Made by a program: the position numbers and the translations under genes
Part shown: positions 29,041-32,580 of the stretch, piece after piece
Position numbering within the stretch: the first letter of the stretch is position 1
Layout of the letters: each line of letters begins with the position of its first letter
Notes under the pieces: model-generated
What the model saw: the letters and a program-made list of their open reading frames with translations, nothing else
Database searches by the model: none
What the model was told of the DNA's origin: nothing
DNA from: Alphaproteobacteria bacterium CG_4_9_14_3_um_filter_47_13
GTDB taxonomy: Bacteria > Pseudomonadota > Alphaproteobacteria > Micavibrionales > Micavibrionaceae
Reading direction: 5' to 3'
Length of the DNA: 43,192 bases
NCBI GenBank assembly: GCA_002789675.1
Contig: PFTR01000099.1
Coordinates: 1 to 43,192 of the forward strand

Positions 29041-30084
29041 CTACTCGGCGGCTTCTATTTGCTGTGCGTTGCTATAACCGACGGCGTGCATTTTAACGCC
29101 GGTATCGAGCATCCGGTTAGAAAAGCCCCATTCATTGTCGTACCAGCTCATGATCCGCACAAGTTTGCCGTCAATGACTTTTGTGCCTTCCAGCGAGAAG
29201 ATGGAGGAGAGCGGGTTATGATTAAAATCTCCGGAAACAAGCGGTTCGTCATAGCAGCCGAGAATGCCATCCAGATCACCGCCGGAAGCCTCCTGAATAA
29301 TGCTGTTAATTTCCTCTATTGTGGTATCGCGGCTGGCGATGAATTTAAGGTCAACAACGGAGACATTGGGTGTTGGAACACGAATGGACACGCCGTCAAG
29401 CTTGCCATTGAGTTCGGGCAGGACTTTGCCAACGGCTTTGGCTGCGCCTGTTGATGTGGGGATCATGTTGAGCGCACCCGCACGGGCGCGGTGCAGATCT
29501 TTATGCATGGTATCAACAAGGCTCTGGTCGCCGGTATAGCTGTGAATCGTGGTCATAAAGCCGCTTTCAATCCCGATTTTCCGGTGCAGGGCATGAACCA
29601 CAGGGGCAAGGCAGTTGGTGGTGCAGGAAGCGTTGGAAACAATTTTGTGTTCTGCTGCCAGTTTATCGCTGTTCACGCCGTAAACAACTGTTAAATCTTC
29701 ATCTTTGGCGGGAGCGGAGATCAGAACTTTTTTTGCGCCAGCCTCGAGATGTCTGGTGGCTTTGTCGCGGTCGGTAAAAATTCCGGTGCATTCAAAGACA
29801 ATATCAATATCCATTTTCCCCCAGGGCAGGGCAGCGGGGTCGCGCTCCTGTGTGCATTTTACTTTTTTACCATCGGCAATGATGGTGTCTGTGCCTTCGG
29901 TTTTCACATCAAAGGGCGATGTGCCGTGTACGGAGTCATATTTAAGGAGATGCGCGTTTGTTTTGATGTCGGCCAAATCGTTAATGGCAACGATCTCGAT
30001 ATCATCGCGTCCTGATTCGATCCATGCCCTGAAAACCAGCCGCCCGATGCGTCCAAATCCGTTAATTGCTACTTTGACTGTCAT
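29041..30084 (-). CDS. gap: Glyceraldehyde-3-phosphate dehydrogenase, type I
   Basis: This is a 347-residue glycolytic enzyme. [13 protein letters not shown] near 8-20 is the NAD-binding loop, and Asp36 after strand 2 favours NAD over [13 protein letters not shown] at 150-158 carries catalytic Cys154, and the paired His lies in the HSYTGDQ segment. The C-terminal [12 protein letters not shown] is canonical. AAGGAG just ahead of ATG 30084 is a strong ribosome site. It follows tkt on the same strand, as in many Alphaproteobacteria (tkt-gap-pgk), but the inverted-repeat cassette has been inserted between them and pgk is not adjacent. Confidence 0.97.
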
Positions 30085-30109: not shown

Positions 30110-30138
30110 AACGCCAAGGGCGCAAAGTTACGCAAAGT
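30110..30138 (+). repeat. Left 29-bp inverted repeat of the cassette
   Basis: Contains two CGCAAAGT units after AACGCCAAGG. It includes the stop codon of the enclosed gene (TAA on the minus strand, 30128-30130). Mismatches to the other arm are at repeat positions 6, 11 and 21. Confidence 0.85.
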
Positions 30139-30547
30139 TTTTTTGTGACTTTGTCATAGCAATGCGCCGAATTCCATCTTTTAGTGATTTTGTATTAAAG
30201 TTTATGCGTAACCCCAAGGGTTTGTGTGAGAGTTTCAAGTAAGTATGAAGTTGTGCCTCATGGACAGGCAGGATTCTTTCAACAGCTTTCAGCTCTACTA
30301 TAACCTGATTTTCAACTAATAAATCAAGTCTTAAGCCAGATTCTATTGTCAGGTTATCAATTATAACAGGAAGATGTTTTTGTCTTTCTACTTTTATATT
30401 TTTGGCTGTTAAAAAATGAAAAAGACAATTCTCGTAAACGCTTTCCAGCAATCCGGGGCCAAGTTTTGTGTGTATGTAAAAACAGATATCAAGAATATCC
30501 TTTGATATCCTGTTTGTATATGCTGGTATTTCAATGATCCCGGTCAT
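30128..30547 (-). CDS. GxxExxY protein, predicted PD-(D/E)XK nuclease fold
   Basis: This is a 139-residue soluble protein. Residues 32-38 read GLLESVY, the motif naming the GxxExxY family. Asp75 in RLDLLV, then Glu85-x-Lys87 in VIVELKAVE, match the D-x(n)-ExK active site of PD-(D/E)XK nucleases, followed by the family's QLHTYLKLSHKPLGLRINFN region, which is cited here by its ends at about 99 and 118. ATG 30547 is chosen; a longer frame to 30715 would run back through tkt. The right inverted repeat is its whole leader, with only AAAG before the ATG, so translation may rely on read-through from tkt. Function in the family is unknown. Confidence 0.8.
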   Translation of the reverse strand: MTGIIEIPAYTNRISKDILDICFYIHTKLGPGLLESVYENCLFHFLTAKNIKVERQKHLPVIIDNLTIESGLRLDLLVENQVIVELKAVERILPVHEAQLHTYLKLSHKPLGLRINFNTKSLKDGIRRIAMTKSQKNFA

Positions 30548-30576
30548 ACTTTGCGCAACTTTGCGTCCTTTGCGTT
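30548..30576 (-). repeat. Right 29-bp inverted repeat of the cassette
   Basis: Read on the minus strand it holds three CGCAAAG units with the spacing of the left arm. It lies between the tkt stop codon and the ATG of the GxxExxY gene and touches both. Confidence 0.85.
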
Positions 30577-32580
30577 TTATAATCCGGCTTTTGCGGCCAT
30601 GATAATGGCCTCTGTTGTAATGCCGAAATGTTTGAAGAGCTGTTCGGCGGGTGCGGATTCGCCGAAGCTTTTCATGCCGATGAAGATGCCGTGACCACCG
30701 ATCAGATGATCCCATCCCTGACGAATTCCGGCTTCGACGGCGATTTTGATGCTGCCGTTACAGACAAGGCTTTGGTAATATTCGCCGTCTTGCTCCATCA
30801 AGAGATCCATGCATGGAACAGAAACAACACGCGTGGCGACTCCCAGTTTTTCAAGCTGCGTTTTGGCTTCGATTGCCAGATGCACTTCCGAACCGGAGGC
30901 AAAAATAGTGATTTTAGGCTCTTCGGCACAGTCCGAAAGAATATAGGCGCCTTTGGCGCAGAGATTTTCCGGTGTGTTGTCACGTAATGTTGGTAAGCCT
31001 TGCCGTGTCAGTGCCAGAGCGCTTGGGGCATTTTTCTGTCTCAGTGCCAGTTCCCAGCATTCGGTCGTTTCAACCCCGTCACAGGGGCGGAAGACATAAA
31101 GATTGGGAATGGCACGCAGTGCGGCCAGATGCTCCACCGGCTGATGCGTGGGGCCGTCTTCGCCAAGGCCGATGGAATCGTGTGTGAGAACATGAATGAC
31201 ACGCTGCTTCATCAAGGCGGCAAGGCGGATCGCCGGACGGCTGTAATCACTGAATTGCAGGAAGGTGCCGGAATAGGGGATAATACCGCCATGCAGTGTC
31301 ATGCCGTTCATTATGGCGGCCATGCCGTGTTCGCGAACACCGTAATGAATGTATTGTCCGCCGTAATTGTCACGGCTGATCACTTCCGGCCCTTTGATTT
31401 TTGTGTTGACCGAGCCTGTCAGATCGGCAGAGCCGCCGATCAGAAACGGCAAAGCAGGGATTAATGTTTCAAGCACTTTCCCCGAGCATTGGCGCGTGGC
31501 AAGTTTTGGTTTTTCGGAAGCAAAGCGCTCTTTCAGTTCTGCAATTAAAGGGGTAATGATTCCGCCGATATCAGCCGCCAGAACATTTTCAAAATCCCTG
31601 CGGTAGCGGTTCTGCTCTAGAGTGTTTGTCCATTGCCGGAATTCCGTGTGGTTGCGTTGTCCGACCATACGCCAGCAATTCAGGACATCTTTCGGGATTT
31701 CAAAGGCATCATACGGCCAGTCCAGATTTTTCCGCGTTCCTTTTATTTCTTCTGCGCCGAGCGGGGCGCCATGGGAATCGGCTTTCCCCTGTTTCGTCGG
31801 TGCGCCGAATCCTATATGGGTTTTACAGCAGATCAGGCTTGGCGTTTCTGCCATTTGCGCTTTGGCAAGAGCGGCATCAATCTGTGCGGTGTCGTGACCA
31901 TCAATGGTCTGGACACTCCAGCCATAGGATTCAAAGCGTTTTGGCACATCATCAGAATAGGAAAGGGATGTCGGCCCGTCAATCGAGATTCCGTTGTCGT
32001 CATAAAGAACAATTAATTTGCCTAGCTTCAGGTGTCCGGCCAGAGCGCATGATTCATGACTGATCCCCTCCATCAGGTCGCCGTCACTGGCAATCACATA
32101 AGTATTGTGACTAATCAGATCCTCGAACCGTGCGGCCAGAATTCTTTCGGCAAGGGCAAAGCCAACGGCGTTGGAAATGCCCTGTCCCAGAGGGCCGGTT
32201 GTGGTTTCAATACCCATATCGGGCATGATTTCGGGATGGCCGGGAGTCAGGCTGCCGAGCTGCCGGAAATTTTTAATCTGTTCCAGAGTCATTTTCTCGT
32301 AGCCGGTTAAATAGAGCAGGGCATAAAGCAGCATCGAGCCATGCCCGGCGGAGAGAATGAAGCGGTCACGATCCGGCCAGAGGGGATTGCGCGGATCAAA
32401 TTTCAGATATTTGCTGAATAACACGGTGGCAACATCCGCCATTCCCATCGGCATTCCCGGGTGTCCGGAGTTGGCTTTTTGCACAGCATCCATGGATAAA
32501 GCGCGGATGGCATTGGCCATGATTTTAAAGTCATAACCAGCGTCCGTTTTTTTGCTTGCTGTGGCGGTCTGCTTGTTCAT
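30577..32580 (-). CDS. tkt: Transketolase
   Basis: This is a 667-residue thiamine-diphosphate enzyme of the pentose phosphate pathway, moving two-carbon units between sugar phosphates. The N-terminus has [14 protein letters not shown] with substrate-binding His, then [16 protein letters not shown], the ThDP motif starting [12 protein letters not shown] with the closing DDN, and the middle-domain GVREHGM and [22 protein letters not shown] with catalytic His. Length is normal for the family. It heads the tkt-gap unit. Its stop codon directly abuts the inverted-repeat cassette, leaving the coding sequence intact. Confidence 0.97.

Follow-up and report, generated by a model that had tools for sequence, protein, structure and literature searches.

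The window, the 43,192-nucleotide stretch of DNA analysed here, contains an intact gene for a GxxExxY protein of 139 amino acids (30128–30547, minus strand). The gene sits between tkt, which encodes transketolase (30577–32580, minus strand) and is its upstream neighbour in the operon, and gap, which encodes GAPDH (29041–30084, minus strand) and is its downstream neighbour. Exactly as described in the original prediction, the gene is bounded by a 29-nt inverted repeat. The 5′ arm (30548–30576, minus strand), before the gene, holds three CGCAAAG words (30568–30574, 30559–30565 and 30549–30555), and its inverted copy, the 3′ arm (30110–30138, plus strand), holds CGCCAAG (30112–30118) and two CGCAAAG words (30121–30127 and 30131–30137); the arms are complementary at 26/29 positions (90%) and lie 409 nt apart. 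The coordinates confirm two further claims: that the 5′ arm abuts the tkt stop codon and makes up the whole leader of the GxxExxY gene, and that the other arm holds the stop codon of this gene (30128–30130), which falls between two of its words. When the 200 nt upstream of the gene were compared with the reverse complement of the 200 nt downstream, the pair reached an arm score of 43; random placements reached 26 at the 99th percentile, with maxima of 33 and 29 (n = 416 and 476). CGCAAAG by itself is not rare in the window (16 occurrences versus 9.5 expected); the unusual feature is the presence of three words at 9–10-nt spacing at both ends, not the word count. The genome from which the window derives (2.35 Mb in 170 contigs) has one GxxExxY gene, and the genome-wide search for the repeat that had been proposed found the exact CGCAAAG-N3-CGCAAAG pair in the two arms and nowhere else. 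No promoter within the unit exceeded the shuffled expectation, and no known RNA family was found at the locus.

GxxExxY proteins abound, and no function has been assigned to them; the families TIGR04256 and PF13366 are annotated without one, and their definition omits flanking arrays and a recognition code. The window protein matches both the TIGR04256 (GxxExxY) profile (3e-40, 137 bits versus a curated cut-off of 35) and the PF13366 (PDDEXK_3) profile (2e-38, 131.7 bits versus a cut-off of 22). D75 and E85-x-K87 (codons within 30287–30325, minus strand), together with the G32xxE35xxY38 motif, are invariant in two alignments (A1 and A2, with 22 and 37 relatives, respectively), and with these wide margins the proposed PD-(D/E)XK-like character of the protein holds. 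The AF2 model of the protein (pLDDT of 91.8) has lambda exonuclease (E = 9e-4) and SSO0001 (E = 1e-2) as its top Foldseek matches; the TM-scores are modest, at about 0.4–0.47, so the assignment to the PD-(D/E)XK superfamily rests mainly on Pfam and the motif. By analogy with that superfamily, D75, E85 and K87 would be the catalytic residues.

The arms follow a constant grammar across loci: a T-rich edge, (AA)C and usually three words of the form C[A/G]CnnnG or C[A/G]CnnnT at a period of 8–10 nt, mirrored at the opposite end. The words vary between loci, even inside one genome, and both arms of one locus share the word. Agreement at word positions 2, 4, 5, 6 and 7 is 0.94, 0.75, 0.97, 0.96 and 1.0 within loci, compared with 0.55, 0.39, 0.51, 0.81 and 0.82 between loci. 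Linkers between the words agree far less (0.52 arm to arm versus 0.345 for shuffled partners). One GxxExxY subgroup (L009:1034–1414, L013, L040 and L042) has a different arm layout: L009 carries CTCTGCG upstream and CGCAGAG on the downstream complement, so that its words are direct rather than inverted, and no arms were found at L040 and L042.

The GxxExxY family occurs sporadically, in up to six copies, in 33/95 related genomes, most of which are MAGs. Among 73 matches in these relatives (one element counted twice), 57 had an arm score of at least 27, a range in which the background is sparse (1% reach 26), and the same test found arms at 57 of the 80 loci compared across many phyla. With a strict parser, only about half of the elements (107/194 and 36/88) had words recognized in both arms; the others have decayed, lie at contig ends, are arranged in another way or are truly armless. 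These comparisons support the gene and its arms as a recurring unit. The original prediction had stated that GxxExxY genes of other phyla also lie near such repeats, and this was borne out: arms co-vary with the genes, and the words differ by locus. Three divergent GxxExxY paralogues (L071, L072 and L073) have apparently lost the E-x-K motif and have no flanking arms, in keeping with a dependence of the arms on enzyme activity.

Mutual information between words and protein columns singles out residues 12, 15, 16, 19 and 23, which share one face of predicted helix 1 in the AF2 model (residues 9–29; codons 30461–30523, minus strand), our candidate recognition helix. Sequence kinship inflates such covariation, a concern that is lessened by contrasts and blind tests. 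In contrasts between near-relative pairs with differing words, on a tree built excluding the helix-1 columns, no column scored above residue 12 for word position 4 (0.82 versus 0.33) or above residue 15 for word position 5 (0.84 versus 0.28). For position 5, the rule is that T15, or S15 with G, E, D or H at residue 16, goes with G5, and anything else with A5; it was correct at 102/106 loci, compared with 78/106 by nearest homologue. The first 18 hold-out loci were all correct, but they had been seen before the rule took its final wording, and we therefore ran a fresh, preregistered test on new loci from the phylum of a verrucomicrobial genome, using proteins ≤68% identical to any used earlier. 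The rule was correct for 33/36 loci (Fisher, 2e-7), one of the three misses being a protein without its N terminus, and it is valid for the G-ending and the T-ending word subfamilies alike.

For position 4, the rule is that N12 goes with A, D12 with C and E12 with G. It is strong in the first set and in the contrasts, fails for words ending in T and is weak in the new sets, which are small and gave no separate validation (7/9 and 13/17, versus 8/9 and 12/17 for the majority class). A natural experiment in Flavobacterium supports it: among orthologous elements between batD and batE, N12 occurs with CACAAAG, E12 with CACGAAG and Q12 with CACAAGG. The window protein has N12, S15 and K16 (with L19 and F23 on the same face), for which A4 and A5 are predicted (CnCAAAG), as found. 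Judged by this covariation, specific recognition of the word by the protein is strongly supported.

The units are strongly biased in orientation, a feature that had gone unnoticed in the original prediction: among 134 loci, 95 are in sense with both neighbours and 5 are antisense to both (p = 1e-22). The first word mostly lies 0–20 nt after the upstream sense stop codon, so that units start at or within about 20 nt of it, in agreement with the insertion sites that had been proposed. At tkt–gap, the unit is also present in the congener G001 and at L120, and has been kept vertically in at least three species. In most other relatives with adjacent tkt and gap, a short empty spacer, mostly of 9–82 bp, separates the two genes; these are the empty sites that had been suggested as a check. 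At this site, the copy in G019 is decayed and its words are different, and G004 has a gene-less arm pair with CACTAAG words. Between batD and batE, 30 Flavobacterium genomes include intact, remnant and empty states. Arms that recur beyond this locus, empty sites in relatives and covariation of repeats with GxxExxY genes are each the opposite of an outcome that had been named as speaking against the original prediction.

Arms also occur without a gene. In the genome from which the window derives, four arms with the related words CGCAAAG, CGCGAAG, CGCAAAG stand singly; they are of the 3′ type (for example, TTTCAAAAAACTTTGCGTCACTTCGCGTCCTTTGCGTT), with no partner or gene (L004:967–983 and L005–L007:1501–1517, on contigs C87, C94 and C149). 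Three of the four shortly precede a TTGACA-containing stretch. Gene-less mini-elements of about 100–130 bp lie between unrelated operon genes: G001 has many such copies with its own word, and its congeners G002 and G003, which lack the gene, have none. Arms between murG and murC were found only in G001 and, independently and with other words, in G004, the rest of the spacers examined being armless. Solo arrays are enriched in relatives that have a gene of the cognate word (CGCAAAG, p = 0.007; CACTAAG, p = 1e-6). There are counter-cases: G017, G048 and G076 have many CACTAAG palindromes and the cognate gene was not found in them, and in G000 and G046, which do have it, there are no additional exact CGCAAAG arrays. 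In G048 (L355–L358), several gene-less CACTAAG palindromes occupy the loop of a palindrome that resembles a REP (GAAGCAATCCAG...TGGATTGCCGCG), which suggests hairpin-loop insertion or a composite repeat.

The component that disperses is the gene-less arm pair. The original prediction of a minimal mobile or selfish unit stands in so far as gene and arms recur together and gene-less pairs disperse; there was no sign of the gene-bearing unit jumping. No near-identical gene copies within one genome were found among 194 domains, and recent transposition of the gene was rejected on this ground. Target-site duplications (TSDs) were sought at tkt–gap, batD–batE, murG–murC and secD–secF, where spacers are short and flanks diverged; no TSD was resolved, and no exact pair of empty and filled sites emerged. 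GxxExxY records numbered 8 for plasmids, 0 for phages and 1 for viral contigs, a near-absence on which a phage or plasmid vehicle was rejected.

RAYT genes are flanked by inverted REPs, are mostly single copy, have no mobility of their own and co-evolve with their repeats; REP/REPIN repeats are scattered between genes and correlated with a cognate RAYT/TnpA-REP gene (PMC2817692, PMC8266576). As in a REPtron, the gene here lies between inverted repeat copies and has dispersed cognate repeats. The enzyme differs, however, RAYT being a HUH/Y1 tyrosine transposase and the window protein a predicted PD-(D/E)XK nuclease. The REP is a hairpin with a GTAG/GTGG head, whereas the arms here are arrays of C[AG]CnnnG words with degenerate linkers, and the present units are distinguished further by their sense bias inside operons and by the occurrence of several gene copies in one genome, most of them with differing words. 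By membership, the unit in the window is not a REPtron.

On balance, we think it probable, although by no means assured, that the unit in the window belongs to a selfish, REPtron-like system of two parts, a PD-(D/E)XK nuclease and its cognate inverted arrays. The code, the match between arms and gene, the immobility of the gene and the dispersal of arrays are all most simply explained by such a pair. The GxxExxY nuclease would specifically recognize arrays of 7-nt words, three per arm and inverted around its own gene, with residues 12, 15, 16 and 19 of helix 1 reading the variable word positions. Expression would come most likely through read-through from the host operon, which would explain the sense orientation. 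Acting in trans, the enzyme would cut or pair word arrays and so spread or maintain gene-less palindromic copies, placed just after stop codons, where they would do little harm; the gene itself would be immobile, diverging and decaying in place. We infer that the target is DNA rather than RNA, that the arrays are cleaved and that they are mobilized. The unit period of the main type, 8–9 nt, is unlike the 10.5-bp period of DNA and counts against this explanation.

The main rival, by virtue of the parallels with 23S rRNA IVSs and S23-type genes, is a mechanism at the level of RNA, which we hold to be unlikely. The arms would form a stem in the transcript that is cut by the nuclease or by RNase III, the protein would bind its own transcript, and the unit would be selfish or neutral and inserted through RNA. 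In the Coxiella 23S IVS, three tandem heptamers precede an S23p ORF inside pairing inverted repeats, with a cut by RNase III, and the likeness to the present unit extends to the small ORF, the sense of the host transcript and the decaying ORFs (PMC4990558). S23-type four-helix-bundle genes of the relatives (TIGR02436; L108–L114 and L116–L118, for example L109:1430–1870) share this layout of inverted short-word arrays and are mostly in sense with their neighbours, although their word grammar is another (for example, GTTGCAAGATGCAAGTTGCAAG). The S23p fold, a four-helix bundle, is, however, unrelated to that of the window protein, and IVSs are RNase III substrates within rRNA helices, whereas the unit here lies between the protein genes tkt and gap and its words, to judge from covariation, are read by its own protein. 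Arm mismatches show no G-U bias (G-U versus A-C: 35 versus 52 in linkers, 52 versus 55 in words) and linkers agree less than words, so pairing as such does not seem to be the conserved feature. The missing bias makes an RNA stem improbable as the selected feature, a result that bears on pairing and not on the binding of words in RNA.

Regulation alone is less probable still: the protein would bind the words of the leader and those downstream to tune the operon, the unit would be immobile and solo arrays would have been recruited by the host. An arm that is the whole leader and overlaps the ribosome-binding region fits this account, as do the vertical retention at tkt–gap and the lack of recent copies, but the patchy presence, the decayed and gene-less remnants at the same sites, the change of words from locus to locus and the mini-elements dispersed among unrelated operons in one species and not in its congeners do not. 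We strongly doubt that the arms are the terminal inverted repeats of an ordinary transposon, whether of the cut-and-paste or the copy-and-paste kind, or that the unit is a homing endonuclease gene. The small size, inverted ends, short gene-less derivatives and presence/absence polymorphism at orthologous sites are shared with MITEs and insertion sequences; against this stand an enzyme that is not of the DDE type, the lack of recent identical copies and of TSDs (none resolved, the flanks being too diverged), words that differ between loci of one genome, the strong sense bias and the scarcity on plasmids, phages and viral contigs. A homing endonuclease gene would split its own target in a conserved site; the empty tkt–gap sites have no arm words, which leans against this reading. 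Least credible, to the point of being very improbable, is a toxin–antitoxin or defence module in which the arrays would mark self DNA or act as the antitoxin, with the nuclease directed at DNA that carries or lacks them. A nuclease fold would suit such a module, and words within a genome do tend to differ (equal in 1/65 pairs versus 4.2 expected, P = 0.06), as expected if systems must not cross-react; this orthogonality looked striking but is not significant, and we make no claim from it. Gene-less arrays moreover persist without the gene, and no link to defence genes was seen in incidental inspection.

Nothing in the literature searched describes the system; the exact repeat strings led to unrelated papers only, and subscription journals were thinly covered, so that an earlier description is possible. 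We know of no explanation for the short CnCnnnG repeats that are scattered in many bacterial genomes. The REPtron-like pairing of nuclease and arrays suggests that a gene family of ‘unknown function’ and these scattered repeats are tied into one selfish, REP-like system. REPtron-like systems would thereby gain a second class of enzyme, and a compact sequence-reading nuclease domain may become available. We see an even chance that the reading extends further: that GxxExxY genes, which occur in many bacterial phyla and in one archaeal MAG, together by analogy with S23-type genes, drive a class of unrecognized selfish elements that are bounded by arrays and lie in sense inside operons, that their nuclease reads 7-nt DNA words through a short helix-based code, and that many dispersed bacterial repeats of the CACAGAG, CGCAAAG and CACGAAT types derive from them. 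What the family does and where the repeats come from become directly testable questions, and the residue-to-base rule predicts a specificity swap by one change, S15T, from A5 to G5. A further specificity contact is possibly indicated at word position 6, as in the few cases in which words end in ACG instead of AAG (L037, L053, L055, L060 and L173), the usual R or K at residue 49 is lost.
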